This document shows, in pieces, positions 6,524-38,979 of a DNA stretch of 38,979 bases. Each line of letters begins with the position of its first letter. Positions within the stretch are counted from its first letter, which is position 1. The notes beneath the pieces are model-generated. The model made no database searches and had not been told where the DNA came from. It worked only from the letters and a program-made list of their open reading frames with translations. Both the position numbers and the translations under genes were made by a program. Where the stretch lies: contig CAJOFY010000015.1 in NCBI GenBank assembly GCA_905233945.1, positions 1-38,979 of the forward strand, in the 5' to 3' direction. The stretch comes from an uncultured bacterium. GTDB lineage: Bacteria > UBP6 > UBA1177.

Positions 6524-6560
6524 GCCGCCGTTGAATTGCTAACCGCTTGTGGAGTCGCTT

Positions 6561-8306: not shown

Positions 8307-8315
8307 AGGTAAAAA

Positions 8316-9413: not shown

Positions 9414-9416
9414 AAT

Positions 9417-13663: not shown

Positions 13664-13690
13664 TTGACCGTTATATATTCAAAATGTAAT
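13664..13690 (+). promoter_or_regulatory. possible promoter of the giant lipoprotein gene
   Basis: TTGACC (13664-13669) and TGTAAT (13685-13690) are separated by 15 nt in the 175-nt gap after pilR. Spacing is one base shorter than at the better promoters here. The rest of the gap is AT-rich with no terminator that I can see. Confidence 0.35.
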
Positions 13691-13783
13691 ATGCCGCGGT
13701 TTTTGATTATTTTATTTTTTGAATACATTATGAAAGCAAACGACAAAACAGATACTTTTATCAACTTTTTCAAAGGTAAAACC

Positions 13784-16700
13784 ATGAAAAAATTCTTTTT
13801 GTGCTTTGCTGTAAGCTTGCTTTTCGTGATTGCAGGCTGCGGCGACAGCTCGACAAGCAGTAATGAAAAACCCGATTCGGGTGACACCGTGAACGATGAA
13901 GACACGGCTGACACCGAACCAACCGGCGATACAGAACCGAGCGGTGATACTGAACAGGCTGGGGATACAGATAGTGATACAACACCTGACAATCCCGATA
14001 CAACGCCGGAACCGAAACCGGACGATGACGCTGACACGACACCTGCACCGAAACCGGATGATGATTCCGATACGACTCCGGAACCCAAACCTGATGAAGA
14101 TGCTGACGCTGACACAACTCCTGAGCAGAATGACGACGATGCTGACTCAACACCTGAGCAGAATGACGACGATGCGGATTCAGAACCTGAGCAGACCGAC
14201 GACGATGCGGATTCAGAACCTGAACCAAGTGATGACGATGCAGATTCGGGTGAAACTCAGCCTGATGAAGACGCCGACACCGGCATTATTGAACCCACAG
14301 AAGCTGAAAAATGCGCTGCGGCTCATGGAAATTGGAACGCGGGAACAGGCAAATGCACAAAGACTGTCGACTGCTCAAATAAACCCGGCAACAGTGAATG
14401 GAACGGTCCTTCATCATATACGCAGACTTATGCCGACGGCACATGGACTCCAAATAATGTAGCGACTGAATACAGCGAGACTGAGGGAGAGTGCCGCTTC
14501 AAATGCGCTGAAACCTACTATTGGTTCAACAATTACTGCACAAACGGCTGCGAAGGCGATCCGTGCAACGGAAATCACGTTGTTTCGGGCAGATGCACTC
14601 CGACCGGAGCAGAAACTTTTTACTGCGACTGCGAAAACGGTTATGTGTGGAGCAATAACGCGTGCAATCCGCTCTCGGAAACAAGCTGCACTCTTGCCGG
14701 CGGAACATGGCAGGCAGACACAAACAAATGCACAAAAAGCTGGGATTGCAATGAAACTTCTCCGCTTGGTGAGCATGCTGTCTGGAACGGCTCGCATTTC
14801 TTTACTCAAGAATATACTGCAGATACCGGATGGAGCGGCTGGGTAAGCAAAGAATACAACGAAACGCCAGGTGAATGCCATTTTGTATGTGAGGACAACT
14901 ACTACCCGGATCACACCTATAATCCGGCAATTTGCCGAAATCCTTGTGAATCAGGCGGCAATGAATGGTGTCAAAGCATTCGTCATGCCGTCGAAGGCAG
15001 CTGCAATGCAACAGATGCGACAACCTACACATGCGACTGTGAGGACGGTTATGTCTGGGCACCTGATAAACCGGTCTATGATGCAGAGAAATGCGAACCG
15101 ACTCTCGAAACAAAATGCACTCTTTCAGGCAGAATTTGGGATGCAGAACAGAACAAGTGCAGGAAAGAGTGCGATTATAAACCTGAAAATACTGTATGGA
15201 ACGGCTCAGAGACTTATGTGTCAACATATTCGGACGAAGGAACATGGAGCTATGTCGGGACAGTTCACAGTGATGAGCCGGGAGAGTGCCATTACAAATG
15301 CGCTGAAAACTACTATTGGAACGATGAGAAGTGTGTAAATCCGTGCGAGGAGTATCTTTCTGAAGAAATACCGGGGAGCGGATCATATTCCTACACCCCT
15401 TGCAACAAATGGTTTGTTGATGAACACACGGACCATTCGTGCACTCCGACCGGAGCAACGACCTACATCTGCGGCTGCGTTGAGTATTATGAGTGGAACG
15501 CTGAAAGCAGAACCTGCGACCTCATTCCTTGCGAAATCGACGATTCTTTCACAGTTTCTGCTTACGATGAGCACTTCCTGATCAACAGAAGTTTACACAT
15601 ACCGCGCTTAATAGACATCGACAATGCTTTACTCGATTTTGCGACAGACGATTACGATTTCATTTTTGGAGATAGTGATTACGATTGGGCTTATACTCAT
15701 GCATTAGTTGAAGACGGAAATCTTGTTTTTCATATTACACATTATATGGATCAGGATTTTAATAATTCTCTGTCCCTTTATTCGGTTGTTTCACCGGAAG
15801 TTCTGGAGAGTGCGCTTCCTAACGGAAAAATCTCCCTTGATGCCGCTCCGCAGACTTATGTGTTGTCTTTTGAGACTCTGTACTCCGATGAAGAGAGTGT
15901 CACTAAAATATGCACGGCGGCTCTGAACCAGTTCACAGGAAACGATTTCTCAACCGGAACAGGAAGGATGCAGATTTGTCTTGGCGACAACAGAGACTTC
16001 TCCGATGGAGAGGAAATCAGAGTTGCTATAGACGCCAAACTCGTTTCTGACGAAGCGTATCTCACCGATGTTTTTTCGGATTTCAGAAACGCCCTCTTGT
16101 TTGATGATTCCGAATATGAATGGCTCGAATTAAACGACATATGCGAATTCAGATGCAATAGGCAGAACACTGAAGTAAAAGATCCCGTAACAGGCAGATG
16201 CGGCTGTATCGACGGATACACTTGGGATGGCAATGCACACAAATGCGTTGAGATCGTCAACGATCCGTGCGACCCGAATCCGTGCGTCGGAGAAACAAAT
16301 TCAACCGAAGTATGCACCGCTGACGGTGAAAACTACACCTGCGGATGCATCGACGGATATTACTGGGACGGAAATTCTTGCGAGCCGACAAACGCTACAA
16401 TATGCGCTGACCTCGGTGACGGAGCGCAGTGGAGCGGAGATGCTTGCATAAAAGAAAATGTTCCGTGCCCCGAAATAAATATCGCTCATTCTGGTAATGC
16501 AGAATGGAACATGAGCGGCGTTTACACTCAGGAATATGATTTTGCGGCAGGACAATGGAACGAGCTTGAAGCATCGTCATACAGCACAACAGCCGGTATA
16601 TGCCGCTTCAAATGCGCTTCCGGCTACTACTGGTATGGTTCCGACTGCGTAAACGGCTGCACAGATGATCCGTGCAGCGGAGAAGACAATACTGTTCCTG

Positions 16701-18469
16701 ACAGCTGCGTTTCTCAGGGATCTTCAGCTTATACCTGTGAATGCAGTCCGAATTATTTCTGGGATTCCTCCAGCAAAAGCTGTGTAAATCCGTGCGACAG
16801 TGATCCGTGCGGTGAAAATTCCACATGCACTCCGACAGCAATTAACGACTATGAATGCGGTTGTATTGAAAATTATTTCAGGTCTCCGCTCGGCAACTGT
16901 GTGAACCCGTGCGACGAAAATCCGTGCGGCGAGCATTTCATAAGCTGCACTCCGAACAGCACAAGCTCTTACTCATGCGAATGTGAAGAAGGTTATGTAT
17001 GGGAGTATACCGGGTGCAAAGAAAGCAACGATACAATATGCAACGGTCTCGGCGACGGAGCAACCTGGGACGCGGAACATAACAAATGCATAAAAACTTT
17101 TCCCTGCGAGGACAAGCCTGAAAACACTATATGGAACGGCAGCGATTTCTATACTCAGGAATACAATTATAACAGCAGCTCGTGGAGCGACCCCGGAGTT
17201 ACGCAATACAGATCCGTCCCTGGAGACTGCAAGTGGATATGCGATGACGGCTATATGCTGATGCAGGGCGCTGTCGGATGCATTGACCCGCTTCTGAACT
17301 ACTGCACGCCTGACAACAAAACGACATGCATTGATCCGGAAACCGGTTTGTTCTGGTCCGACCACCATTTTGAAGATAACGAAAATTGGGAAACTGCTTA
17401 TGAATCCTGCGAAAATCTTAATGACGGCGTCTTCGATGACTGGCATCTGCCGACGGTAGGTCAGCTCAGAACACTTATTCAGGAGTGCGAACCTACTGTG
17501 CTCGGCGGTTCATGCAAAGTTTCAGACACATGTCTCTCCTCGTCAATTTCCTGCTATTATGATGCAGATTGCAGATGCGAAGGTGACTACTCGACCGGAA
17601 AATACAATAAACTGGGAAGTTATGTGCATTTCTGGTCTTCATCTTTGGATGCTGACAATTCAGATAAAGCCTGGTATGTCCATTTCGCCTACGCCGGCTT
17701 CACAAATTCATACAAAACACAGAAAGCGTTCAGGATCTGCGCAAGATGCAAAGACGGCACGGCTTGGAATCCATGGACAGCGACATGTGTCGACACATCT
17801 GAAGAAATCGAGTTTGACTGCGCTGACACCAACATAGAGCATACAGTCTGGAACGATAACGGCGCAAACGGAAAGTTCACGCAGACTTGGAACGGATCGC
17901 AGTGGACTCCGGCTGTTCCTGAAACGACATACAATACGGAACCAGGAATCTGCCGTTTTACCTGTGAAGACGGCTACACATGGGACGGAGAAAAATGCAT
18001 GAACAACTGTTCGGCTTCGAGTGATTTCCCGTGCATTGATCCTGAAACCAGTCTGATCTGGTCATCCAAGGCAACCGAAATAACAGGAGAAAACATTGTT
18101 TCCCACTGCGACAATCTCTATGAAGGTAATTTTAACCACTGGCAGGCACCGACAATCAGCCAGCTCAGGACTCTTGTTCAAAGCGGATACTGCGTCAATC
18201 TGGAACCCGGCGGTTCATGCGGCGTTACCGACACTTGTCTCAATTCAGCGGCATGCTTTGATACTGATGCTTGTAAATGTCATTCTGAGGAAACCAATAA
18301 GTTGGGAGATTACGGATTATTAAGTTCTTCCGCTGATAACGGAAATTATTATTCCATAGCTACAATTTGGGCCTATGTAATCCTTTCCAACACTCTTTCG
18401 ATAACTGACGCACGCTGCGTAAGATGCGCTGACGGCAAAGTTTGGAACGGAACAAAATGCCTTCCGTGA
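13784..18469 (+). CDS. giant Cys-rich mosaic lipoprotein with two Lcl_C (DUF1566) domains
   Basis: A predicted secreted lipoprotein of 1561 residues; function unknown. The signal peptide ends in lipobox VIAGC (C19). Residues 24-170 form an acidic Asp/Glu/Thr/Pro linker. A composite Cys-rich unit then recurs: a short C-xx-xx-G-x-W-x-C motif (about 177, 302, 445, 874, 1086); a WNG...YTQ.Y...W...PG.C.FKC module (about 187-252, 322-394, 463-517, 895-955, 1108-1153, 1346-1405); and EGF-like repeats (about 256-294, 388-437, 520-578, 829-866, 957-1078). A roughly 200-residue Cys-poor insert (583-790) is unfamiliar. Two Lcl_C domains lie at 1182-1322 and 1417-1549. The start follows a weak AAAGG site; the open frame upstream lacks a signal peptide. 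Lying where pilA would be expected, it may be an adhesin; that is inference. Confidence 0.88.
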   Translation: MKKFFLCFAVSLLFVIAGCGDSSTSSNEKPDSGDTVNDEDTADTEPTGDTEPSGDTEQAGDTDSDTTPDNPDTTPEPKPDDDADTTPAPKPDDDSDTTPEPKPDEDADADTTPEQNDDDADSTPEQNDDDADSEPEQTDDDADSEPEPSDDDADSGETQPDEDADTGIIEPTEAEKCAAAHGNWNAGTGKCTKTVDCSNKPGNSEWNGPSSYTQTYADGTWTPNNVATEYSETEGECRFKCAETYYWFNNYCTNGCEGDPCNGNHVVSGRCTPTGAETFYCDCENGYVWSNNACNPLSETSCTLAGGTWQADTNKCTKSWDCNETSPLGEHAVWNGSHFFTQEYTADTGWSGWVSKEYNETPGECHFVCEDNYYPDHTYNPAICRNPCESGGNEWCQSIRHAVEGSCNATDATTYTCDCEDGYVWAPDKPVYDAEKCEPTLETKCTLSGRIWDAEQNKCRKECDYKPENTVWNGSETYVSTYSDEGTWSYVGTVHSDEPGECHYKCAENYYWNDEKCVNPCEEYLSEEIPGSGSYSYTPCNKWFVDEHTDHSCTPTGATTYICGCVEYYEWNAESRTCDLIPCEIDDSFTVSAYDEHFLINRSLHIPRLIDIDNALLDFATDDYDFIFGDSDYDWAYTHALVEDGNLVFHITHYMDQDFNNSLSLYSVVSPEVLESALPNGKISLDAAPQTYVLSFETLYSDEESVTKICTAALNQFTGNDFSTGTGRMQICLGDNRDFSDGEEIRVAIDAKLVSDEAYLTDVFSDFRNALLFDDSEYEWLELNDICEFRCNRQNTEVKDPVTGRCGCIDGYTWDGNAHKCVEIVNDPCDPNPCVGETNSTEVCTADGENYTCGCIDGYYWDGNSCEPTNATICADLGDGAQWSGDACIKENVPCPEINIAHSGNAEWNMSGVYTQEYDFAAGQWNELEASSYSTTAGICRFKCASGYYWYGSDCVNGCTDDPCSGEDNTVPDSCVSQGSSAYTCECSPNYFWDSSSKSCVNPCDSDPCGENSTCTPTAINDYECGCIENYFRSPLGNCVNPCDENPCGEHFISCTPNSTSSYSCECEEGYVWEYTGCKESNDTICNGLGDGATWDAEHNKCIKTFPCEDKPENTIWNGSDFYTQEYNYNSSSWSDPGVTQYRSVPGDCKWICDDGYMLMQGAVGCIDPLLNYCTPDNKTTCIDPETGLFWSDHHFEDNENWETAYESCENLNDGVFDDWHLPTVGQLRTLIQECEPTVLGGSCKVSDTCLSSSISCYYDADCRCEGDYSTGKYNKLGSYVHFWSSSLDADNSDKAWYVHFAYAGFTNSYKTQKAFRICARCKDGTAWNPWTATCVDTSEEIEFDCADTNIEHTVWNDNGANGKFTQTWNGSQWTPAVPETTYNTEPGICRFTCEDGYTWDGEKCMNNCSASSDFPCIDPETSLIWSSKATEITGENIVSHCDNLYEGNFNHWQAPTISQLRTLVQSGYCVNLEPGGSCGVTDTCLNSAACFDTDACKCHSEETNKLGDYGLLSSSADNGNYYSIATIWAYVILSNTLSITDARCVRCADGKVWNGTKCLP
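14120..14251 (+). repeat. 33-bp tandem repeat, four units, encoding an 11-residue acidic linker
   Basis: Units start at 14120, 14153, 14186 and 14219. Units 2 and 3 differ at only a few bases; unit 4 is more diverged. Each encodes a variant of PEQNDDDADSE. Near-identical units in frame suggest the linker can lengthen or shorten by slippage or recombination without breaking the gene. Confidence 0.85.
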
Positions 18470-27094: not shown

Positions 27095-30000
27095 ATGAAA
27101 AAAATTTTCTGGTTTTTATTTCTTTTTGTTCTTTGCTTTCACATATATCCGGCATCAGAAGATGAAAACTGCGAACGCTACACTTTCGACTGCTATGATT
27201 CATCGCAAAATCTTCCGCAGAATCAGATAATTGCATTTTCCGGAACGCATGACGGATATATGTTTGTCGCAGGCAGGAATTTTCTCGCCAGATTTGACGG
27301 GAACGAATTCGTCCTTCCCGGCAGAGGCAGACTTGAAGGAATTCCGACAAGCACGATAAACGATTTTGTCATTGACGACAACGGTACCGGCTACATCGCG
27401 ACCGATCTCGGACTATGGACCGTAAATCTCACCGCTTCCGGCAGGATTTCGTTCAAAAACGTTGACAAAATCGGAAATTCCACTGTCACGTCACTGACTT
27501 ACAGCAAGAAAAAAGCCCTTATCTACGGGTTTGTCCGCGGCAAAGGTGCCTTCGTCCTTTCGGCAAAAGGCTTCTTCGACTGGTTTTCTCCGGAAAATGC
27601 GCGTCTCAGCACAAGAAATGCGGAAAAAATCTATGCCGCTGAAAACGGTACAGTCTGGCTCGGTACCCGGAACGGCATCTATTTCATGAAAGAAAACGGG
27701 GAAAAATTCATCCAGCTGGATGATGTCGAAGATTCAGTCACAGCTTTTGCAGAAAGCAGCGGCAGCGAGCTTTTCGCCGGAGGAAAAAACGGTCTCTATA
27801 TCCTGAACACCGAAACCGGCGAAACGGAAAAAACATATACCGGCGCGGATATTCCTTTCTCCGGCATAACAGCGCTGGAAAGCGAGAATCCAGACACACT
27901 CTGGATAGGAACGGAAAATTCCGGCGGATTTATTTTGAGTTCAGGTGAATACTTCAAAAAAATCTGCGGAACAAAAAATACCGGGCACATCACTTCTTTC
28001 GCCCGGGACAAAGACGGTTCCCTCTGGTTCGGAACCTCTGCCGACGGCTTCTGCATCAAAAAAGAGAGCGCATTCGGCGGTGAAATCTACCAGGATAAAA
28101 TTGTCAGGAACATTGCAGCCGGCAAAGAAAGAGGCTTCTGGATAAACACGGCATCGGGCATTATTTTTTCGTCATATTACGGAGACAGCGAGGAAAACAT
28201 ACCTGATTCCGGCAATTTCAACAGAATATTCGTCGATTCCTCCGACAATCTTTGGGCTTCCGACAATTCAGGACTTTATATCATGCAGCCCGATATGAAA
28301 TTCAAACCGGTGAAAGAAATCTACACAAGCGAAGAAGACCTCTTCCCTGCCTCATCGGAAGTCTTTTTCAGCGATTCCGACGGAAATGTGTGGGTAAACG
28401 ACATATCGTCTCCCGGCGCTCTCTTTCTCTTTAGGAACGACAGAACCGCAGAGAAACTCATACTTCCCGATACTGACGCGGAAATAGTGGATATTATCGA
28501 GCATAACGGCAAAATCTTCGCAGTCACGAAAAGAAACGGTGTTTTCGGGCTTGAGGAAAACGGCACCCTGCAGCCTGTGACTCTGTGGAAAAAGGATATT
28601 TTTGTAAAGCGCGCCTTTACCGATTCAAAACAGAGGATCTGGATAGTGACCCTTTCCGACGAGATTTTTGTCGATATCGAAAATGACGCAATCGCCTTTC
28701 CGCTGCACGGAATCAGCGGCAAAGCCGCAGTCAATTCAATAAACGAGGACAGGAACCATAATCTGTGGATTGCGACCGGTATCGGAGTAGCCGTGATAAA
28801 AGGCGAAGATGCGGACTGTTTTATCAGCGGAAACTGCGCACAGGTGCCTGTCGTGGTTTACGGCAAGAAAAACGGCATGAGTTCATGGGAATCAGCTGAA
28901 GGAAGGGCTGCTGACGCAGCAGAAAGTCCCGTAAACGGATCGATCTGGATACCGATGACAAAAGGGATAGCCGTTTTCAGCACCAGCCTCACCGGTTTAA
29001 TGAATGCCGAAGGGAAAAGCGGCTCTCATCCGGAAATCATTGTTGAACGCATATTTTCGGATGACAGCGGCGAAAGCTACTCTCCGGACTACAGCGGAAA
29101 AATAGTTGTTCCGCACTCAGTGAAAGAGCTGAAGATTTCCTACTCCGCACCTTTCTTCTCAGGAACCGGTCACATTCTTTTCGACTACTCTTTCGATAAG
29201 GAAGAGGTTAAAGGCATAACGGAAAGGACCGTTTCGCTTCCGAATCTTCAGAGCGGCCAGCATGAATTTTCCGTCCGCGCATACAGTTCCGGCAATCCGT
29301 CGGAATTCTCTGAAAAGAAGCTGATTTTAAAAGTGACGCCGGCTTTTTACGAGAACAGATGGTTCATAATAACAGTTCCGCTTTTTCTCATCGTTTTCGC
29401 AATCATTGTCACATTCCTGAACAAACGGATAAAAGCGATACACAACGCCGAAATCAAGCGGCTTATCGAAGAAAAGACGGCTGAACTCCAGCTGAAGAAC
29501 AACACCCTCAAGGAGGCGGTAATGAAAGATCCTCTGACAGGGCTTATGAACAGGCGTTTCCTCTTCGAAGTCGAAGAACGCAAAATCAAACGTTTTATCG
29601 AGTCGCGCGACCTCAAGATGCATCTCCGCGACAACCGCGGCACAACCGAAAAAAACGACATTGTATACGGTCTCATAATGATGGATATCGACCATTTCAA
29701 GCGTGTAAACGATCTTTACGGCCACGATGCCGGAGACATGGTGCTTAAAGGAGTTGCCGAAATCATGCAGGATTCCGTCCGTGCCGACGATATCCTTATA
29801 CGCTGGGGCGGTGAAGAATTTCTTATCGTGCTGAAAAGCATACCGATAAGAAAGATACTTGAGGTAGCAAAAAAGATAAGAAAAGCTATTGAAAAACATC
29901 CTTTCGAGATGCACGGCGGCACCACTGTCTGGATCACAGTCTCGATGGGAGTCATCTTCCTGCCGTTCTTTGCACAGGAACCGAAACTTATGACTTTTGA

Positions 30001-30208
30001 AAACATCATCACTCTGGCGGATACGGCTCTATACCATTCGAAAAAATGCGGACGCGACATGGCTACATTTGTCATTCCAGGCCAGAACATACCGGAAACC
30101 GCGGAAGATACAGCCGGAATGCTCAGCAGCAGCGAATTTGCCGAAGTGAACGGTTTTTACACTTTTGAAAAAATCGAACCGGACAACTTTTCCGAGTTTG
30201 AAATTTGA
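27095..30208 (+). CDS. diguanylate cyclase with periplasmic propeller sensor
   Basis: A 1037-residue membrane protein that likely makes c-di-GMP from GTP in response to an external signal. A signal peptide (about 1-20) is followed by about 620 residues of two-component-propeller type repeats (recurring DGYMFVAG, DNGTGYIATDLGLWTV, NGTVWLGTRNGIYF, DGSLWFGTSADGF). A Y_Y_Y-like beta domain lies near 660-745, a transmembrane helix at 756-778, a short coiled coil, and a GGDEF domain with active site GGEEF (905-909). The inhibitory-site motif RADD (896-899) is present five residues before it, so product feedback is expected. The histidine kinase domain often found with this sensor is absent. Heads a same-strand run with the next three genes. 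Confidence 0.9.
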   Translation: MKKIFWFLFLFVLCFHIYPASEDENCERYTFDCYDSSQNLPQNQIIAFSGTHDGYMFVAGRNFLARFDGNEFVLPGRGRLEGIPTSTINDFVIDDNGTGYIATDLGLWTVNLTASGRISFKNVDKIGNSTVTSLTYSKKKALIYGFVRGKGAFVLSAKGFFDWFSPENARLSTRNAEKIYAAENGTVWLGTRNGIYFMKENGEKFIQLDDVEDSVTAFAESSGSELFAGGKNGLYILNTETGETEKTYTGADIPFSGITALESENPDTLWIGTENSGGFILSSGEYFKKICGTKNTGHITSFARDKDGSLWFGTSADGFCIKKESAFGGEIYQDKIVRNIAAGKERGFWINTASGIIFSSYYGDSEENIPDSGNFNRIFVDSSDNLWASDNSGLYIMQPDMKFKPVKEIYTSEEDLFPASSEVFFSDSDGNVWVNDISSPGALFLFRNDRTAEKLILPDTDAEIVDIIEHNGKIFAVTKRNGVFGLEENGTLQPVTLWKKDIFVKRAFTDSKQRIWIVTLSDEIFVDIENDAIAFPLHGISGKAAVNSINEDRNHNLWIATGIGVAVIKGEDADCFISGNCAQVPVVVYGKKNGMSSWESAEGRAADAAESPVNGSIWIPMTKGIAVFSTSLTGLMNAEGKSGSHPEIIVERIFSDDSGESYSPDYSGKIVVPHSVKELKISYSAPFFSGTGHILFDYSFDKEEVKGITERTVSLPNLQSGQHEFSVRAYSSGNPSEFSEKKLILKVTPAFYENRWFIITVPLFLIVFAIIVTFLNKRIKAIHNAEIKRLIEEKTAELQLKNNTLKEAVMKDPLTGLMNRRFLFEVEERKIKRFIESRDLKMHLRDNRGTTEKNDIVYGLIMMDIDHFKRVNDLYGHDAGDMVLKGVAEIMQDSVRADDILIRWGGEEFLIVLKSIPIRKILEVAKKIRKAIEKHPFEMHGGTTVWITVSMGVIFLPFFAQEPKLMTFENIITLADTALYHSKKCGRDMATFVIPGQNIPETAEDTAGMLSSSEFAEVNGFYTFEKIEPDNFSEFEI

Positions 30209-30236
30209 TGAAATTGTTGATTTTTTGGAGAATATT

Positions 30237-31652
30237 ATGAGCAAAATGCGCAAAGTGCTTCTCTTTTTCCTTCTTTTCGCATCTTTTTCAGCCTTGAGCG
30301 CGGTCGATTTCGATCCGAACGAGGCTTACGCCAGATTCAGGCGCGGAATAAGCGTCGGTGGCGCGCTTTACCCGACTTACCAGGGTAAATCTCTTCTGCT
30401 CGAACTTGACCTTTACGGTTCTTTCGAGTTCTCCGCTCTCGGTTTCGGTGTAGGTCTTCCGGTAAGATTCATTCTGAAAAACGGCAAGGGCGAGGACAGA
30501 ATCGAACCGGTTGCCGAAATTTTTCCGAAAGAAGACTGGGACGATGCGCGTGACTGGGTTGCGATTCTCAATTATTTCCACTACGGTCATTCCGGAGATA
30601 TGTTCTACTTCTACTTCGGTGAGCAGAGGAACCGCTATGTCGGCAACGGCTCGATCGTCGGTGCGTATTTCGGCGACCTCAGGCTGTTTCATCCGCAGCG
30701 CGGAGTCAACCTCGAAATAAACACAGATTACGCCGGAATCGACTTCTTCATGGATGATGTCACCCCGCCCAACGTCATCGGCGGACGCTTCTACCTCAAG
30801 CCGATAAGTTTTTTCAGCAAGGAAAGCTACGCCAACAACCTTGAGATCGGCGCGTCATACTTTGCAGACATCTTCGCTCCGGAAGAAATCAGGGGAAAAA
30901 GCGACAACGATTACGGCCGCGAAATCATCGATTCCGACTTCCAGATTTTCGGTTTTGACCTCTCTTTCCGCCTTCTCGCGATGAAATACTACCAGTTCAC
31001 TTTCTACACCGACATAAACAAAATCGTTGATGCCGGAACTGGAATGCACTTCGGCGTAAAACACAAACTCATGCTTCCAGGCAGCACAGACATGCAGATT
31101 CTGAGCAGATGGGAAGCCCGCGCCATGGAACCGGACTATATCCCGTCGTATTTCAACACCTTTTATGACATCGACCGTGAATATTACAAAGGTCAGAATC
31201 CCAAGGAGCCGTGGCAGCCGACAACAAAATCGCAGTACATCAAAAGTTATGCCGGTAAAGGGGAAAAATGGACAGGCGGATACTATCTGGACCTCGTTTT
31301 CGACATAACGGGAACTTTTTCCGTCGGCGGTTCGTTCGAGCACAACAAACTCTACAACTACGAAGCAAAGAAGTATGACAACTACCAGATAAACGTCTTC
31401 CTTGACACATTCCTTTTCGACGCTTTGTCAATCGACCTCGTTATGACTTTCCAGTCTCTGGGCGAACACGGAAAGGAACTCAGGAACAGGCCGTATTACA
31501 GCGGTTCGATAACATACTACATCAACAGATACTTCAGTATCGGCGCGAGAGCGGCATCGAAGTGGTATCTTGTCGAGGCGCGCGATTATGTAGGTTCATA
31601 CAGCTACTACAACTGCTTCTCGGTAGGCGGTTTCGCAGGATTCAGGTTCTAA
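30237..31652 (+). CDS. secreted protein, probable outer-membrane beta-barrel
   Basis: A 471-residue protein with a signal peptide (cleavage likely ALSA/VDF). The rest alternates polar and aromatic residues in strand-like stretches (KSLLLELDLYGSFEFSALGF, YYQFTFYTDINKIV, LSIDLVMTFQSLGEHG, YSGSITYYINRYFSIGARA) and ends in a phenylalanine (GGFAGFRF), the usual C-terminal signal for barrel assembly. I know no named family for it. ATG at 30237 follows TTGGAG; the frame is open upstream but that part overlaps the cyclase gene. It lies 28 nt after the cyclase and 3 nt before the amidase. Confidence 0.75.
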   Translation: MSKMRKVLLFFLLFASFSALSAVDFDPNEAYARFRRGISVGGALYPTYQGKSLLLELDLYGSFEFSALGFGVGLPVRFILKNGKGEDRIEPVAEIFPKEDWDDARDWVAILNYFHYGHSGDMFYFYFGEQRNRYVGNGSIVGAYFGDLRLFHPQRGVNLEINTDYAGIDFFMDDVTPPNVIGGRFYLKPISFFSKESYANNLEIGASYFADIFAPEEIRGKSDNDYGREIIDSDFQIFGFDLSFRLLAMKYYQFTFYTDINKIVDAGTGMHFGVKHKLMLPGSTDMQILSRWEARAMEPDYIPSYFNTFYDIDREYYKGQNPKEPWQPTTKSQYIKSYAGKGEKWTGGYYLDLVFDITGTFSVGGSFEHNKLYNYEAKKYDNYQINVFLDTFLFDALSIDLVMTFQSLGEHGKELRNRPYYSGSITYYINRYFSIGARAASKWYLVEARDYVGSYSYYNCFSVGGFAGFRF

Positions 31653-31655
31653 CCG

Positions 31656-32525
31656 ATGAAACAACTTCTCTTTTTTCTCGTTTTTCTCTCTTTTTTCGCT
31701 GTTTCCGCACAAAATTCGCTGAGCGATTCCGACATGGATTCACTGGATCAGCTCATTTCAGACATTATTGAAACCTCAAAAAAGGAACAAAAGAAGGAAA
31801 AACCGGCAGCAAAACCCAAAGAAACGCCGAAAAAGCAGAAACAGGAAGCCGTACCTGCCAAGACGAAAGGAAAAAAACTCATCGTCATCGATCCGGGGCA
31901 CGGCGGCAAGGATCCCGGCGCTGTTTCAGGAAAACTCAGGGAGAAGGACGTCGTTTTCAAACTCGCCAGAAAGATGGAGAAACTTGCTGCAAACTACAGC
32001 AATATCGAAGTCAGACTGACACGCAGCAAGGATATTTTCCTCCCTCTTGAAAAACGTGCCGTGATAGCCAACAAAATGAACGGAGACCTCTTTATTTCGC
32101 TTCATGCAAACTCTTACAAAGACAAAAACACCGGCGGAATGGAAATATACCATCTCGACAACACGCGCGACGAATACGCCAACAAACTGGCAAAGGTCGA
32201 GAACAGAATTTCAGAAAACACAACGCCGCTCGACACTATTCTGGTTGATATGGATATAAGCTACTATGTCGGCGACAGTCTTGACTACGCGAAGGAAATC
32301 GGAACGGGAATGAAAAACGGCCTAAAAAAATATGGAACGAAATTAAGGAGTTACAATAAAGGAGCTCTTTTTTACGTTCTCGTCGGAGCAAGAATGCCTT
32401 CCCTCCTTTTTGAAATCGGTTACCTTACCAACAAGGAAGACAGAGAACTTCTCCAGAAAGACGAATACCTTGAGGCAATAGCGAAATCACTCCTTGACTC
32501 GCTTTCAAAATCGAAGGTTCAATGA
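31656..32525 (+). CDS. N-acetylmuramoyl-L-alanine amidase (Amidase_3)
   Basis: A 289-residue zinc amidase that cleaves the bond between MurNAc and the stem peptide of peptidoglycan in the periplasm. A signal peptide (about 1-18, AVSA/QN) and a Lys/Pro-rich linker (about 42-72) precede the catalytic domain. Zinc ligands and catalytic residues are all visible: H82 (DPGHGG), E96 (LREKD), H150 (SLHANS) and E253 (LLFEIGYLTN). It lacks LysM and AMIN domains. In AmiC-type enzymes the insertion after residue 180 forms a blocking helix; here that region (about 178-215) is present, so activation by a partner is possible. Confidence 0.93.
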   Translation: MKQLLFFLVFLSFFAVSAQNSLSDSDMDSLDQLISDIIETSKKEQKKEKPAAKPKETPKKQKQEAVPAKTKGKKLIVIDPGHGGKDPGAVSGKLREKDVVFKLARKMEKLAANYSNIEVRLTRSKDIFLPLEKRAVIANKMNGDLFISLHANSYKDKNTGGMEIYHLDNTRDEYANKLAKVENRISENTTPLDTILVDMDISYYVGDSLDYAKEIGTGMKNGLKKYGTKLRSYNKGALFYVLVGARMPSLLFEIGYLTNKEDRELLQKDEYLEAIAKSLLDSLSKSKVQ

Positions 32526-33499
32526 TGTCCGTAACGAAAAAAACCGCAGGAATCGCCGCAGTCGCACTGTTCACGCTCGCACTTCTCGCGGTTCTCCCCT
32601 TTTTCGGATATGTAAAAATGCCTTTTTCCGGAATTTTCACCGAAAGCGCCGAGTCAGGAATTTTCTGGAGCATAAGGGTTCCGCGCACACTCGGAGCCTT
32701 TGTATGCGGAGCGACACTGGCACTCTGCGGAATGGTTTTCCAGTCGATGTTCCGGAACGATCTTGCGACTCCGTACACACTCGGAGTCAGCAGCGGCGCA
32801 GCTTTGGGGGCTGTCTGCGCGATAAAGCTGTTTGCCTGGTTTCCCACGTTTCTTCCGCTTACACAGACCGCAAGTTTCATGACAGCGCTTATCACTGTCC
32901 TTTTCATCTATTCGGCAGGACGTCTGAAAAAACGTTTTGACACAGGTTTTCTCCTTCTTGCCGGTGTCGCCGTCAACTTCATATGCAGCGGACTTATTCT
33001 TTTCATACAGTATTTGGCAAACGGAAGCGAAAGTGCGATGATGATCCACTGGATGATGGGCAGCTTCGATTTCACAGGCTTTTCGACCGTTCTGAAAATG
33101 CTTCCGGCATTTGTCACAATGACTGCGGTCTCGTTTTTCTTTCACCGCGAACTTGATTTAATGCGGATAGATTCTGATATTGCGGCGACACGCGGCGTAA
33201 ACACTGACACTGCTGGAACGATTCTTCTTTTCACAGTCTCGTTTGCGGTCGCGCTCGTAGTCTCCCAGGTCGGTCCGATAGGCTTCGTGGGCATGGTTGC
33301 ACCGCACATTGCCGGAAAAATCGCAGGGAAAAAGCACCTGACGCTAGCATTCACATCACTTTTTGTCGGAGGTGCGCTTCTTATGCTTTCGGATGCAGTT
33401 TCAAGGACAGTCATCGCTCCGTCGGAAATCCCGGCAGGAGTTGTGACATCGCTTCTCGGCGGTCCCTTCTTCCTGTTTATTCTGATAAAATCGAAATAG
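32522..33499 (+). CDS. FecCD/BtuC-family ABC transporter permease (orphan)
   Basis: A 325-residue inner-membrane permease of the siderophore, haem or cobalamin import family, with roughly nine to ten hydrophobic helices. Family landmarks are RVPRTLGAFVCGATLALCGMVFQSMFRNDLATPYTLGVSSGAALG, an ATPase-contact region near DSDIAATRGVNT, and GPIGFVGMVAPHIAGKI. It overlaps the amidase stop by 4 nt (ATGA). The partner ATPase and binding protein are not present; the next gene is convergent and unrelated. Substrate cannot be assigned. Confidence 0.9.
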   Translation: MMSVTKKTAGIAAVALFTLALLAVLPFFGYVKMPFSGIFTESAESGIFWSIRVPRTLGAFVCGATLALCGMVFQSMFRNDLATPYTLGVSSGAALGAVCAIKLFAWFPTFLPLTQTASFMTALITVLFIYSAGRLKKRFDTGFLLLAGVAVNFICSGLILFIQYLANGSESAMMIHWMMGSFDFTGFSTVLKMLPAFVTMTAVSFFFHRELDLMRIDSDIAATRGVNTDTAGTILLFTVSFAVALVVSQVGPIGFVGMVAPHIAGKIAGKKHLTLAFTSLFVGGALLMLSDAVSRTVIAPSEIPAGVVTSLLGGPFFLFILIKSK

Positions 33500-33506
33500 C
33501 CCGGCG

Positions 33507-34445
33507 CTATCTTACGCAGCGGACGTATTTCAAGTGAATACAGCCGGAATCACCGTAGAAATAACCGACATGGCCGTCGGCAAAATTCACGCCGCAAAAA
33601 TAATGCCCTTCTTCGTCAATTCCTGAAGTCGATGTCCAAAACCAGTATGTATCTCCGAATCTGCCGGAATCGACACCGGCAAGAGTCATCAGCTTGTCCA
33701 GTGACGGAAGACGCCAGTCGGAATATCCGCCCTCGCTCAGCTCACTGCAATAATTTTTAGCCTGTTTGCAGGTCATCTTCCTTACAGCGGCTTTTGACCA
33801 CATAAACCCTGTATCAGGATCTATGCACGGGAATTTTCCAGGTGCAGCGTCACAGCTCTGACGCTGCGCTTTTTCAGCCATGCGGGCAGCTTCGGCCTTA
33901 CGGAATGCTTCCGATGCTTCTACAGTCTCTCTAGCCTCTTTCGCGCATTTTCCGTGCGGAAATTTATCTAAATAATTATTCCATGCTTCAGTTGTCCGTT
34001 CTTTTCGAGCCGAATCACATGCTTTTTTATCGTTCGGATCGGCTTTCCTACGCGGCACAACCGGTGACACAACTACAGTCTGCGCCTGTGCGGAAGCATT
34101 TCTCACGCAGACAACTCTAAGATGCGCTGAAACAAAGGAGCTTTCCTTCTTCCCTGCAGAAAAATCATAGAACCAGGCCTTCTCCTCGTCATTTACATAT
34201 TTCTTTTCGATTTTTTCCCTGTCTGAAGACCAGTAGTTACCGCTGCTTTTATTCAAACCTGAAAGCTCCGATGTGGTCGGAAGACGCCAGTTGTCATGCC
34301 CGTCTTCTGTCAGAAAAGAACAGTAGTCACCAGCCTCAAGCCTCGTCATCGTTTCTTTTGCATCGCTGCTGAAGACACACCCGGCCTCCGCCAGAAGCGG
34401 AAAAAACATTAAAATCGAAATCATAGAAAGAATCAGTTTTTTCAT
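33507..34445 (-). CDS. secreted double-DUF1566 (Lcl_C) protein, array gene 5
   Basis: A 312-residue secreted protein, last gene of the five-gene array. A signal peptide (AEA/GC) is followed by a first DUF1566 module (about 30-115: DYCSFL..G.DNWRLPT..EL, YWSSD, AWFYDF, LRVVCVRN). Next is a linker with the helical motif AWNNYLDKFPHGKCAKEA, and a second module (about 205-312: CIDPDTGFMWSKA, YCSELSEGGYSDWRLPS, WFWTSTSG, VRCVR). The second module lacks the Cys-rich insert of array genes 2 and 4 but shares the CIDP.TG opening of the giant lipoprotein. Starts 6 nt after the previous stop. Function unknown; DUF1566 proteins are mostly cell-surface proteins, and Legionella Lcl is an adhesin. Confidence 0.85.
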   Translation of the reverse strand: MKKLILSMISILMFFPLLAEAGCVFSSDAKETMTRLEAGDYCSFLTEDGHDNWRLPTTSELSGLNKSSGNYWSSDREKIEKKYVNDEEKAWFYDFSAGKKESSFVSAHLRVVCVRNASAQAQTVVVSPVVPRRKADPNDKKACDSARKERTTEAWNNYLDKFPHGKCAKEARETVEASEAFRKAEAARMAEKAQRQSCDAAPGKFPCIDPDTGFMWSKAAVRKMTCKQAKNYCSELSEGGYSDWRLPSLDKLMTLAGVDSGRFGDTYWFWTSTSGIDEEGHYFCGVNFADGHVGYFYGDSGCIHLKYVRCVR

Positions 34446-34451
34446 TTCTAT

Positions 34452-35534
34452 TTATCTTACGCAGCGGACGTATATACCTTCTTTTTTCTCAGGATAGAAA
34501 CCTATATGACCGTTTCTGAAATCAATGCCCCACGGAAGAGTTGATTTCTCCTGCGAACCTTTACAGGATGACCAGAGCCACACGGCGTCTCCCAGTCTGC
34601 TGAACCTGCCGTCTTTATAATTTTTGCAGTCAAAATTTGCCTGACAATCCTGGGCACAGGTTTCCAGTGTCCAGCAACCGCTCTCCTTTCCATCCAGACA
34701 TTTGTTTTTCTTGCTCACCTTGCAGGCTCCGCCGCTTGCAGTCTCTCTGTCTTTGACAAGCATTCTGAGTTCATCTATGTCCGGAAGTTTCCATCCGGAA
34801 CCGTTTTCCTTCAGATTCCTGCAGTAATTTTCAGCAGCACTCCACTTCATTCTGTTCGGGGAACGGTCTGACCATTCAAGATTGCCGATCCTCTCATTCT
34901 TCATTTCGTCATATCTGCTTCTCGCTTCGAATTCATAGATACCTTTCGGGAAAATACGTAAATATTCCTCCCATGCCGCCCGTGTGTTAAGTTTCTTCAG
35001 GTGCTGGAATACCGCATCCTCGGCTTTTTCAGTACACATTCCGTCGGAAAACTCTTTGATGTACTTTATCCAAGGCTCAGTATCATCACTCTTTTTCGAT
35101 TCCTCCTGCGCGAACTTGCATGCTTTTTCGTCTTTCTCTGCGTTATGGCGCATCTCTGCCGCCTGCTTCGCGTCTACATTTCGCACGCAGACAACTCTGA
35201 GGGGCGAAAAGACCAATGATTTATCCTTTTTTTTAGCGGAAAAATCATAATACCATGCCTCCTCCTCCTCGTTTGCATGTTTATTTTTATTCAGTTTCTC
35301 CATCGGATCGGAAGCCCAGTAATATCCGCTGTTTTCATTTAAAGCTGAAAGCTCGCCCGTTGTCGGAAGCCGCCAGTCCGATACGCCGTTTTCCTTCAGA
35401 TTGGAGCAGTAAATCAGAGCCTCCGTGAATTTCTTGCCGCCGACAGGTCTGCTCCACACAGTTTCTTCTTCCCAAAAACAGCCCGACAAAAAAAGCACAG
35501 GAACAAAAACAAGTAAAAGAATCAGTTTTTTCAT
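34452..35534 (-). CDS. double-DUF1566 lipoprotein, array gene 4
   Basis: A 360-residue lipoprotein: the signal peptide ends in LFLSGC. Module 1 (about 28-118) has GGKKFTEALIYCSNLKENG, DWRLPTT, YYWASD, AWYYDFSAKKK, VVCVRN. The linker holds two copies of the helical motif (WIKYIKEFSDGMCTEKA, AWEEYLRIFPKGIYEFEA). Module 2 (about 240-360) has YCRNLKENGSGWKLPDIDELRMLV, then a Cys-rich insert (GGACKVS...CL...GCWTLETCAQDCQ..FDC), RFSRLGDAVWLWSS and YVRCVR. Two in-frame ATGs occur; the second (35534) has AGGAG six bases upstream, while the first abuts it. Its N-terminal half is very close to array gene 3 in DNA sequence. Confidence 0.85.
   Translation of the reverse strand: MKKLILLLVFVPVLFLSGCFWEEETVWSRPVGGKKFTEALIYCSNLKENGVSDWRLPTTGELSALNENSGYYWASDPMEKLNKNKHANEEEEAWYYDFSAKKKDKSLVFSPLRVVCVRNVDAKQAAEMRHNAEKDEKACKFAQEESKKSDDTEPWIKYIKEFSDGMCTEKAEDAVFQHLKKLNTRAAWEEYLRIFPKGIYEFEARSRYDEMKNERIGNLEWSDRSPNRMKWSAAENYCRNLKENGSGWKLPDIDELRMLVKDRETASGGACKVSKKNKCLDGKESGCWTLETCAQDCQANFDCKNYKDGRFSRLGDAVWLWSSCKGSQEKSTLPWGIDFRNGHIGFYPEKKEGIYVRCVR
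35386..35442 (-). repeat. 57-bp identical block, copy 1 (in array gene 4)
   Basis: These 57 bases are identical to 36368-36424. They encode the stretch from GGKKFTEAL through CSNLKENG of the first DUF1566 module. A second shared block of over 25 bases lies near 35213 and 36200, in the DFSAKKKDKSLV region. Confidence 0.9.
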
Positions 35535-35559
35535 TTTCATCTCCTGTTATTCAACAACT

Positions 35560-36510
35560 TTATTTTATGTCACGTATACAGCGGACGAAATCCTTGTCAT
35601 CCTTGCTGCCGCTGTCAGCGCCGGCTGCATCATCGAATTTCAGCTCGAACGCCCTGCCGGGATCTGCGCTGTCTTCCTGTGATGACCAGAACCATCCGGC
35701 ATCTCCGAACCGGCTCTGAGAGGCATGGAGTCTTAAAATTATCAATTCGGAAAGATCCGGGAGCCTCCAGCCGGACAAACCGTTTTCCTTCAGATTCAGG
35801 CAGTAATCCATCGCGTCATACCAGCTCATCTGACGAGCGGCGCGTTTTGAATACTGCAGAGTTCCAACCGTCCTTTTTTCAAGATCACGTTTTTCATCCA
35901 GTTCTCTCTGTTCCCGTTCTATCCGCTCTTTTTCAGCACGCTCCTTTTCTGCCCTTTCTTTTGCAATGCGCTCCTCTTCCCTGCGTTTTTCAGCCTCTTT
36001 GATTTCCAGCTTTTCAATTTCCGCCTTTGCTTCAAACGCACATTCTCCTTTCGGAAAGTTTTCAAGATACATTTTCCATGTGGTCAGAGACTGATCCTTT
36101 CTCGCGAACCCGCATGCTTCCCGGTCACGTTTGTCAAACTTAGGCTTTGCGGCGGCATTTTTCACACAGACAACTCTAAGGCGTGCCGAAACCAATGATT
36201 TATCCTTTTTTTTAGCAGAGAAATCATAATACCAGGCCTTGTCCTCGTCGTTTGCATACTGTTTTTCCCTATTCAGATCGTCTGCCGTATCGGAAGCCCA
36301 GTAATATCCGCTGCTTTCATTGAAAGCGGAAAGTTCGTCCGTTGTCGGAAGCCGCCAGCCAGAGACACCGTTTTCCTTCAGATTGGAGCAGTAAATCAGA
36401 GCCTCCGTGAATTTCTTGCCGCCGGCAGAACTGCTCCACCGCAGTCCCGCAGCCGCACAAAGCGGAAACAGCAGAAACACGAAAAGCAGTAAAAAAATCA
36501 GTTTTTTCAT
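35560..36510 (-). CDS. secreted double-DUF1566 protein with coiled-coil linker, array gene 3
   Basis: A 316-residue secreted protein with a signal peptide (likely CAAA/GL). Module 1 (about 23-118) nearly repeats that of array gene 4. A helical motif (TWKMYLENFPKGECAFEA) leads into a strongly charged coiled coil (about 165-212, runs of KERAEKER type). Module 2 (about 218-316) has YCLNLKENGLSGWRLPDLSELIIL, RFGDAGWFWSS and a diverged ending FVRCIRDIK; it lacks the Cys-rich insert. Its ribosome-binding site GAGG is made from the last codons of array gene 2, 5 nt upstream, implying coupling. Function unknown. Confidence 0.83.
   Translation of the reverse strand: MKKLIFLLLFVFLLFPLCAAAGLRWSSSAGGKKFTEALIYCSNLKENGVSGWRLPTTDELSAFNESSGYYWASDTADDLNREKQYANDEDKAWYYDFSAKKKDKSLVSARLRVVCVKNAAAKPKFDKRDREACGFARKDQSLTTWKMYLENFPKGECAFEAKAEIEKLEIKEAEKRREEERIAKERAEKERAEKERIEREQRELDEKRDLEKRTVGTLQYSKRAARQMSWYDAMDYCLNLKENGLSGWRLPDLSELIILRLHASQSRFGDAGWFWSSQEDSADPGRAFELKFDDAAGADSGSKDDKDFVRCIRDIK
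36368..36424 (-). repeat. 57-bp identical block, copy 2 (in array gene 3)
   Basis: Identical to 35386-35442 in array gene 4, 982 bp away in direct orientation and at the same place in the first DUF1566 module. Confidence 0.9.
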
Positions 36511-36515
36511 TTTAT

Positions 36516-37598
36516 TTACCTCACACAGCGGACATTTAATTTATAACTGCCGGAATCGGATTTTCCGTAACTCAGAAGGCCGTTGCTGAAATCAATATAC
36601 CAGTACCAGCTGGTGTCATCTGATACAGATGTCGAAGACCATAGCGCAATTTTGTCACCGAGCTTACTGTATCTGCCGTCAGTATTATCCCTGCTGCATT
36701 TATCCAAACTATGCTCACATGCTTCGGCACAGGTTTCAAAACTCCAGCAGCCGTTGTAAAGTTTCGATGAGAGGCAGCCGCTCATTGCGCTGACTCTGCA
36801 CTCACCTCCGGCGGCGGTTTTTCTCTCTTTGACAAGTGTCCTCAATTCATCGATAGTCGGAAGCCGCCAGCCTGTATATCCGTCCAGCCTCAGATTTCTG
36901 CAATATTTCTCAGCATCACGGAAGGAAATATTTGTAACTGGTATCCCCGACCATTCCAAGCCTTCTGCCATCACTCGGACTTGAGACTCCGGTACTGGTC
37001 GGTTATCAGGCATACTGTCGGGATTTTCCGGAGCAGTTTCCATAGAATTTTGTTTATTTAAAGCCGTTCTTGCTTCATTTGCACAGGCACCGTTCGGATA
37101 CATTTCGAGATAGAATTTCCATGCATGTTCGGTTTGTGTCTTTCTTGCGTGAAGGCAAACCTCTTCGACACCAGCAACCCCCGGTTCTTCCGGAATATCA
37201 GACACAGCACCTCCGGGCATGTTCCGGACACAGACTACATTCCTGGCTTCGGAAACAGGCGCCGGGAATCGTTTTTCTCGTTCAAAATCATAAAACCAGG
37301 CACGTTCGTTTTCATTTTCCTGACTTTCAGAAACGGCTTTCACCTTATTCGACGACCAGTAGCGGCCTTTTTTTTCACCCTTTAACACCTCGAAATCGTG
37401 GATTTTCGGAAGTTTCCAGTCGCTGTGACCGTTCTCTTCCAGCTTCTGGCAGTAATCAAGGGCATTCTCCCATCTCATTGATTTTCCTTCAACTGAGCTC
37501 CATTCAGGGCTATAGTCTTTCAATTTATAGTACTTGCCGTGAATCAGGACTGCAGCAACAGCCAGGAGACATAAAACTAAAACTATCCCTTTTCTCAT
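36516..37598 (-). CDS. secreted double-DUF1566 protein, array gene 2
   Basis: A 360-residue protein with an N-terminal hydrophobic segment (about 5-21) that may be a signal peptide or an uncleaved anchor; there is no lipobox. Module 1 (about 30-125) has YCQKLEENGHSDWKLPKIHDF, YWSSNK, AWFYDFERE, VVCVRN. The linker has AWKFYLEMYPNGACANEA and a Pro/Glu-rich spacer. Module 2 (about 212-360) has YCRNLRLDGYTGWRLPTIDELRTLV, the Cys-rich insert (GGECRVS...CL...GCWSFETCAEACEHSLDKC), RYSKLGDKIALWSS, a WYWYIDFSNG strand and NVRCVR. GAGGAAG precedes the ATG. This module is the closest in the array to the Lcl_C domains of the giant lipoprotein. Confidence 0.85.
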   Translation of the reverse strand: MRKGIVLVLCLLAVAAVLIHGKYYKLKDYSPEWSSVEGKSMRWENALDYCQKLEENGHSDWKLPKIHDFEVLKGEKKGRYWSSNKVKAVSESQENENERAWFYDFEREKRFPAPVSEARNVVCVRNMPGGAVSDIPEEPGVAGVEEVCLHARKTQTEHAWKFYLEMYPNGACANEARTALNKQNSMETAPENPDSMPDNRPVPESQVRVMAEGLEWSGIPVTNISFRDAEKYCRNLRLDGYTGWRLPTIDELRTLVKERKTAAGGECRVSAMSGCLSSKLYNGCWSFETCAEACEHSLDKCSRDNTDGRYSKLGDKIALWSSTSVSDDTSWYWYIDFSNGLLSYGKSDSGSYKLNVRCVR

Positions 37599-37644
37599 CC
37601 GGCTTCCTCAATACTCGAAACACAAACTGCTGCAGAAAAAACCG

Positions 37645-38427
37645 TCAGTTTTCAGAAACACAAACCGAATCACACAGAGTGTCAGGTCTCGACTGTCCTC
37701 TCAGTTCGTAGTTCGCAGGGTCATTCCCGTATTCTACATAATCCCAGTAATATTCTCTACTGTTTATCCATAACCTCTGCCGCGAATCCGGAAGATATTC
37801 TTTAAATTCTCCGCTGTCGTACAGCTTTTTAAACTCATCGACAGTAGGCAGACGCCATTTTTTGCCGTCCTTGTTCAGTTTTCCGCAGTCACTATCCGCT
37901 TCTTTCCAGAGCTTCTCCTCTTTTGTAAGGCGGCACCACGTCCTATCTGAGTTTGAAGTAAAAGATATCAGACACTCTTTATTATCGGATCCGTCAGTTT
38001 TTTCCGGTAATTCAGTTTCTTTGGCCCAAACATTCACCGCGGCTTTTGGTTTATGGTTTGGGGGTCTTTTACCGTTCCACCGGATGCAGACGACACGCAT
38101 AGGCTCGGAAACCGGTGCCTCGCCTTCTTCTCTGCTGCCGGCATCATAAAACCAGGCCTTGTCCGCATCAGATGAAGAATCGGATGTCCAGTATTTCCCT
38201 TCTTTAAGCTGCCCCAGCATTTCCCAAGTCTCAAGTTCGTTGGCATATGGAAGTTTCCAATCATTGTGTTCTGCGTGACCTGGTTCTTGCAGATTCTGAC
38301 AGTAAAGAATGGCGTCAGCCCGTTTCATTTCCATGTCAGAGGCACGGCTCAATTCCGGCAGATAATATCCGGAAAAAATACATCCCAAAGCTATTAAAAC
38401 GGCTGCTAAGTATATTAAGACTTTCAT
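37645..38427 (-). CDS. secreted double-DUF1566 protein, array gene 1 (most diverged)
   Basis: A 260-residue protein that opens the array. The N-terminal hydrophobic segment ends in IALGC, a poor lipobox, so anchor or signal peptide are both possible. Module 1 (about 35-118) keeps YCQNL, NDWKLP, YWTSDSS, AWFYD and VVCIRW. The second half (about 155-260) keeps the W..A...C..L..DG..WRLPT.DE core but ends DSVCVSEN instead of the RCVR signature, and the linker lacks the helical Y.L..FP motif. It is thus a shorter, partly degenerate version. AGGGAT precedes the ATG. The gap to array gene 2 is 46 nt. Function unknown. Confidence 0.8.
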   Translation of the reverse strand: MKVLIYLAAVLIALGCIFSGYYLPELSRASDMEMKRADAILYCQNLQEPGHAEHNDWKLPYANELETWEMLGQLKEGKYWTSDSSSDADKAWFYDAGSREEGEAPVSEPMRVVCIRWNGKRPPNHKPKAAVNVWAKETELPEKTDGSDNKECLISFTSNSDRTWCRLTKEEKLWKEADSDCGKLNKDGKKWRLPTVDEFKKLYDSGEFKEYLPDSRQRLWINSREYYWDYVEYGNDPANYELRGQSRPDTLCDSVCVSEN

Positions 38428-38581
38428 TTTATCCCTAAATAATAAAAAGCAACAAGCGCCTTTTCATACATCTTTCAGCAGACCTAATCAACAAAAATAA
38501 CGTTTTGATTCAACAATTTTCCGCATCCTCCACAAACTCTCAGGCGATGCAATTTTTTATGCTGACAAGGAGGGATTTTTT

Positions 38582-38609
38582 TTGACTTCAAACTTTTTAT
38601 GGATACTAT
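38582..38609 (+). promoter_or_regulatory. promoter of the right-edge secreted protein
   Basis: TTGACT (38582-38587) and TACTAT (38604-38609) are separated by 16 nt. The leader of about 50 nt contains the palindrome GGTTAACC (38628-38635), a possible operator, before the GGAGG site at 38656-38660. The gap 38428-38581 shows nothing else I can name; the array promoter on the minus strand must lie there but is not obvious. Confidence 0.6.
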
Positions 38610-38665
38610 CTCGCGTTTTTAGTTTTGGGTTAACCAATTTTTGTTATTTTATTTTGGAGGAAGTT

Positions 38666-38979
38666 ATGAAAAAATTTTTGGTTCTTGCAGCTGTTATTTG
38701 CTGCACATTCGGTCTTTTCGCAAAGATCGGCGATCCTACACCTGAGATTATCCAGCTCACTTTCGGTCTCGGTGCTGCCGATTTGGACAATGAAAGCTGG
38801 AATGAACTTGGCTTAACAGTCGGTGCAGACATTGACTGGAATGTTTGGGAAAAAGCTACAACAAAAGCTCACGACGGCAGCGGCAAAATGTATGCAGGTC
38901 TTGATCTTGCGGCTCAGTGGTGGATTCCTACAAGACATGCTGACGGTTTCAAACGTCACATGATCATGATCCCTGTTCA
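38666..38979 (+). CDS. secreted protein, partial; probable outer-membrane barrel
   Basis: The first 104 residues of a protein cut by the window edge. It starts MKKFLVLAAVICCTFGLFA with likely cleavage after LFA, then KIGDPTPEIIQLTFGLGAADLD and alternating strand-like segments (LGLTVGADIDWNVWE, MYAGLDLAAQWWIPTR). That pattern fits a porin-like or other barrel protein, but too little is visible to name a family. TTGGAGG lies 5 nt before the ATG and a strong promoter precedes it, suggesting an abundant protein. Confidence 0.75.
   Translation, partial: MKKFLVLAAVICCTFGLFAKIGDPTPEIIQLTFGLGAADLDNESWNELGLTVGADIDWNVWEKATTKAHDGSGKMYAGLDLAAQWWIPTRHADGFKRHMIMIPV

Follow-up and report, generated by a model that had tools for sequence, protein, structure and literature searches.

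The window analysed here, 38,979 nucleotides long, makes up all of contig C15; the assembly, from an uncultured UBP6 bacterium, totals 2.65 Mb and is 99.7% complete. At 33507-38427 it carries five minus-strand open reading frames, which we refer to as A1-A5 and which encode proteins of 312, 362, 316, 360 and 260 aa, respectively. An earlier note, made from the sequence alone, had described this locus as a five-gene tandem array of proteins that each combine an export signal with two DUF1566 modules, and the open reading frames, profile searches and alignments confirmed this description. The gaps from A1 to A5 measured 6, 19, 5 and 46 nt, matching the approximately 5-50 nt first given, and ribosome-site-like sequences (AGGAG, GAGG or AGGGA, read from the sequence) lie upstream of the starts of A2, A3, A4 and A5, one of them overlapping the preceding stop codon. 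The spacing supports an operon-like layout, and the five genes would be co-transcribed. The presumed site of the array promoter is the divergent intergenic region (38428-38665) that separates the array from an outer-membrane-protein-like gene. Promoter and terminator scans gave matches within ~1.2 sd of the shuffle means, and a promoter-like match on the minus strand of the intergenic region (38467-38439) was weak and not above chance. The intergenic DNA is kept in congeners only from 38574 rightwards. The outer-membrane-protein-like gene at 38574-38979 encodes a protein 88-100% identical to those of congeners G005, G006 and G011, whose permease is only ~77-80% identical; the end of the contig overlaps contig C20 by 99 bases.

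On the other side of the array, A1 and a FecCD-like permease gene are convergent and lie 7 nt apart. The permease belongs to a conserved left anchor on the plus strand (27095-33499), which also includes genes for a Reg_prop/GGDEF protein, a membrane-protein-like product and an N-acetylmuramoyl-L-alanine-amidase-like product, the amidase and the permease being named by eye. Elsewhere in the window, a gene at 13664-18469 encodes a protein of 1601 aa that contains a Thr/Asp-rich region, Cys-rich repeat modules and two Lcl_C modules bearing a Cys insert; type IV pilus-like genes (6549-13608; of PilB/PilT/PilC/two-component type, named by eye) lie immediately upstream of it.

Using the Pfam profile Lcl_C (PF07603, DUF1566), we found two stretches in each of the five array proteins, all of which passed the gathering cut-off of 34.9 bits with scores of 57.1-96.1 bits (E = 1.9e-25, 1.3e-22, 2.8e-20, 2.2e-27 and 2.8e-15 for A1-A5), and the two halves proved related both to each other and to Lcl_C. 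Within one protein, module 1 and module 2 aligned at ~25-40% identity, which indicates that they are homologous but distinct, in line with the earlier view that the two are unlike. All five first modules end in VVC(V/I)(R/K), also as described. The second modules are less uniform than had been claimed, as a Cys-rich insert, said to occur often, was found in two of the five (A2 and A4), and the exact ending RCVR is present in three. The linker motif AW..YL..FP.G.CA.EA, reported for four of the five linkers, does occur in A1-A4, loosely matched; A2 has two copies of it and A5 none.

In A1 (33507-34445), module 1 (approximately residues 22-116) is followed by a hairpin linker, AWNNYLDKFPHGKCAKEA, and by module 2 (approximately residues 205-312), which ends in YVRCVR. 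A2 (34452-35540), whose start is likely the second ATG at 35534, has the lipobox FLSGC and places two hairpin motifs, PWIKYIKEFSDGMCTEKA and AWEEYLRIFPKGIYEFEA, between module 1 and an insert-bearing module 2 that also ends in YVRCVR. A3 (35560-36510) has a module 1 nearly in common with A2 (74% amino acid identity), a hairpin (TWKMYLENFPKGECAFEA), a 55-residue charged helix and an insert-free module 2 ending in RCIRDIK. A4 (36516-37598) joins module 1 to an insert-bearing module 2, ending in NVRCVR, through a hairpin and a flexible spacer. A5 (37645-38427), the first gene in the reading direction, encodes a normal module 1 and a strongly diverged module 2 that ends in VCVSEN. These assignments draw on open reading frames, profile and alignment, and for A3 and A4 also on AlphaFold and Foldseek. 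By eye, the N-termini of the array proteins are hydrophobic export signals, among which only that of A2 has a clear lipobox; the signals of the others are less clear and could be membrane anchors instead.

A sequence search of the PDB reached the Legionella pneumophila adhesin Lcl only at E = 0.3-0.6. Since this match is weak by sequence, structure comparison was needed, and A3 and A4 were modelled with AlphaFold2 (mean pLDDT of 86 and 74, respectively). Both models show, in order, a signal helix, head 1, a helical hairpin, a spacer and head 2, the spacer being the charged helix in A3 and a low-confidence coil in A4; how the two heads are placed relative to each other is uncertain (pTM 0.43-0.47). 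Both models matched the C-terminal domain of Lcl best among PDB entries (8q4e; E = 2.3e-4 for A4 and 4.2e-6 for A3), which the A3 model matched with a TM score of 0.63 over the target and an rmsd of 2.3 Å, and the next matches were snake-venom and mammalian C-type-lectin-like domains. A3 and A4 are thus predicted to contain an Lcl-CTD / C-type-lectin-like fold, and the Lcl-like family named in the earlier note is supported by profile and predicted structure alike.

Lcl itself resembles C-type-lectin-like domains without their calcium and carbohydrate motifs, and its trimeric C-terminal domain binds sulphated glycosaminoglycans via R342, K369, K380, K385 and K391 (PMC11162425). The array proteins share with the Lcl domain (8q4e/8qk8) its Pfam family and export, and the A3 and A4 models also its fold, but they differ from Lcl in having two heads rather than one, a helical-hairpin linker and, in two members, the Cys-rich insert; by eye, no collagen-like GXX repeats, which in Lcl precede the C-terminal domain along with an N-terminal amphipathic helix, were found in any of the five. 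The array does not have the architecture of an Lcl-type adhesin. At the position of Arg342, numbered as deduced from PMC11162425, A1-A5 carry T/T/T/I/A in module 1 and L/I/L/I/V in module 2. As this residue is conserved in none of the 10 array modules, the glycosaminoglycan site has not been preserved at this position; the other Lcl binding residues aligned unreliably. With at least one binding residue of Lcl not conserved, the adhesin role proposed in the earlier note stays conjectural.

Two further groups of proteins show weaker likeness. To our knowledge, no operon of paired modules has been described for the Leptospira Lsa25 / LIC_10572 family of DUF1566 surface proteins. These proteins (NCBIfam NF047850, NF047763) share weak similarity with the array in the Lcl_C part (E = 6e-3 to 7e-7), but the array falls far below the curated cut-offs of 260 and 200 bits. 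Module 2 of A4 weakly matched FISUMP / Fib_succ_major (TIGR02145, PF09603) at 36.9 bits, although this is below the cut-off of 41.65 bits and the architecture differs.

We next consider the distribution of the array. Rumen UBP6 MAGs have been placed in the genus UBA1177 (PMC7820578), and the named relatives of the permease gene come from UBP6 and other ruminant-gut MAGs, so this is the most likely source group of the window. The GGDEF - membrane protein - amidase - permease block is kept in the genus, with the genes past the permease varying by species. When we looked for the five-gene order past the permease in the 12 congeners with enough contig there, it was found in none of them; congener G010 has two other Lcl_C genes close to the site. 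Outside the array, the closest homologues reach 40-51% identity, compared with 58-81% for the permease. Searches with an array protein returned no match in a collection of genome contigs, consistent with lineage specificity, and only two remote matches (32-37%) among viral contigs.

The genome as a whole is rich in this domain. We counted 90 Lcl_C open reading frames with 179 modules, which occupy 5.9% of the genome length (fetched stretches). Congeners carry comparable numbers, the rest of the order has fewer (6-48 matches), and beyond the order loads of this size are rare. For all five array genes the best genome-wide match lies inside the array, so the array is not a product of chance. Across the genome, the best paralogue lay within 12 kb for 21 of the 90 Lcl_C genes, versus 1.4 expected by permutation, with further arrays on contigs C2 and C46. 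On C46 (L099, 980-7137), three adjacent genes for proteins of 645-694 aa share an identical three-module Lcl_C layout and have their best matches inside the cluster. The five first modules of our array form one group among 208 modules (SH-aLRT 91), and a single origin of the second modules of A1-A4 was not rejected (AU p = 0.83). A quick tree had scattered the second modules, as if recruited from unrelated loci; as the AU test does not reject a single origin, we do not claim such recruitment.

Such a load of Lcl_C genes might reflect selfish or neutral expansion, in which copies accumulate by recombination and decay and the array has no specific role. The degenerate second module of A5, the absence of the array from the testable congeners and the differences between species past the permease are what this reading would lead one to see, and the members of the array need not all be functional. 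Against it, none of the five reading frames is interrupted, scaffold residues (W-[RK]-L-P and VxCV) are largely kept, and dN/dS for module 1 of A2 and A3 is 0.15/0.33, below 1. We consider neutral expansion improbable.

The same pair of genes shows how the array varies. Module 1 of A2 and A3 has a dS of 0.33 and includes an identical run of 57 bp, versus a dS of 2.3 for module 2, and synonymous codon identity differs between the modules (Fisher p = 7e-4, for one of six pairs, picked after inspection). A recent 5' half joined to an old 3' half implies either that the former was overwritten by gene conversion or that the latter was exchanged.

Among the annotated Pfam domains of DGR targets, DUF1566 is the most frequent (PMC4159848, PMC6642488), and we found DGRs acting on it in relatives of our genome. 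Seven intact template/variable repeat (TR/VR) pairs were identified, in congeners G002, G003 (two loci), G004, G005 and G009 and in G023, which belongs to another family of the same order. The repeats of 89-132 bp lie beside a reverse transcriptase and differ by 7-22 mismatches, all at template adenines. By coordinates, each placeable VR lies at the 3' end of an Lcl_C gene; the VR of G009 runs into the contig end. The seven loci (L125-L131) all have Lcl_C-type targets, and in G023 one template serves two of them. Translated congener templates read WSSS..NNTNNAWNVNFNNGNVNNNNK. The reverse transcriptase of one G003 locus (L127) carries the DGR-typical motifs IGNLTSQ and YVDD. In the literature searched, we found no paper linking UBP6 with DGRs.

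In our own genome the DGR is broken. The counterpart locus on contig C1 (L052:4895-8186) retains a target gene whose end is VR-like and, beyond a transposase-like ORF (by eye), a C-terminal reverse transcriptase remnant that corresponds to residues 325-458 of a relative's enzyme, and neither a template nor the catalytic part of the reverse transcriptase was found there. Approximately 20 of the genome's Lcl_C genes have a 3' end that matches a congener template; in the candidates examined, agreement was 0.76-0.95 at non-adenine positions and only 0.34-0.53 at adenine positions, the pattern that frozen variable repeats would show. The only Pfam-detectable reverse transcriptase, which lies beside Lcl_C genes on contig C21 (L002:5660-6931), was considered as a DGR enzyme and rejected, as it is a UG26 (PADLOC RT_UG26, E = 5e-154) without TR/VR; it sits inside a cluster of genes for zinc-ribbon, Sel1-repeat-like and Lcl_C proteins. 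Apart from this enzyme and the C-terminal remnant, a search of the genome for a DGR reverse transcriptase found none, and at 99.7% completeness a missed contig is possible.

These findings bear on whether the array genes are themselves DGR targets whose variable repeats are rewritten in trans. Their domain is a DGR target in the genus, the genome holds the frozen repeats described above, and the C-terminal W..[VI].F..G layout of the array modules coincides with congener variable repeats. However, the array 3' ends reached at best 0.62 of non-adenine positions against congener templates, where the background is ~0.5 and frozen repeats score far higher, which indicates that they are not DGR targets. 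No TR/VR pair was found at 30001-38979, and the only DGR-type reverse transcriptase trace in the genome is the remnant on C1. The array also differs from DGR targets in having two heads per protein, second-module ends that are only weakly VR-like, and neither a template, a nearby reverse transcriptase nor an adenine-specific repeat pair. The array is kin to DGR targets yet is not a set of them, and rewriting in trans appears very improbable. The suggestion in the earlier note of a variable set is supported between species, given the absence of the array from congeners, and for the domain, which congener DGRs hypermutate.

The positions specified by AAY codons of the template are the most variable among the ~179 modules of the genome (mean entropy 3.66 vs 2.53, p = 2.5e-5). 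In A1-A3 these positions are 62% identical in module 1 and 11% in module 2, a contrast drawn from few sequences and due in part to overall faster divergence of module 2. The array could represent a DGR-independent repertoire with a constant head, a rod and a variable head, in which DGR loss was followed by tandem duplication and modular gene conversion, with head 1 staying uniform and head 2 diverging at the face that relatives hypermutate. We regard this specific history as rather unlikely.

The heads might instead act within the envelope, as periplasmic or membrane-tethered recognition or scaffold proteins that bind one of the cell's own parts, for example peptidoglycan, a pilus or an outer-membrane protein. 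The linker unit (ACE-A ... W..YL..FP.G.CA.EA) with an insert-bearing Lcl_C module recurs in our genome and in congeners behind several types of N-terminus, and in the genus it is fused to Sel1-like repeats, a thioredoxin-like domain and zinc-ribbon membrane proteins (named by eye), so use of the Lcl_C domain is not confined to the surface. The targeting of Lcl_C by DGRs in congeners suggests, on the contrary, that the family in general recognises a ligand that changes and is probably external. An envelope-resident role is possible, though we think it doubtful.

Overall, the five genes form a lineage-specific, operon-like array, and their exported products, with two heads of lectin fold, most likely bind ligands. 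In the explanation that we prefer, and to which we give an even chance, tandem duplication would have built an operon whose five paralogous products are exported and bind ligands. Each product would have a more conserved and a more variable Lcl_C head of C-type-lectin fold, linked through a helical hairpin and a spacer that varies in length. The proteins would be exposed at the surface and bind ligands there, and we infer a division of labour between the heads. Of the two, the N-terminal head is the more conserved and probably contacts an unchanging partner (an envelope component, a sister subunit or a common ligand), and the more variable C-terminal head probably meets a changing ligand (a glycan, a surface protein or a neighbouring cell surface). 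The array would have arisen or arrived in a lineage whose genome was already rich in Lcl_C genes, and would now diversify via duplication, partial gene conversion and point mutation rather than by DGR. The candidate phylum UBP6 inhabits ruminant stomachs, and this member devotes ~6% of its genome length to genes with one recognition domain. For ligand tests, the array offers five pairs of heads, and the intact, frozen and apparently untargeted natural copies of one domain within one genus would allow what a DGR gains over duplication and drift to be compared.
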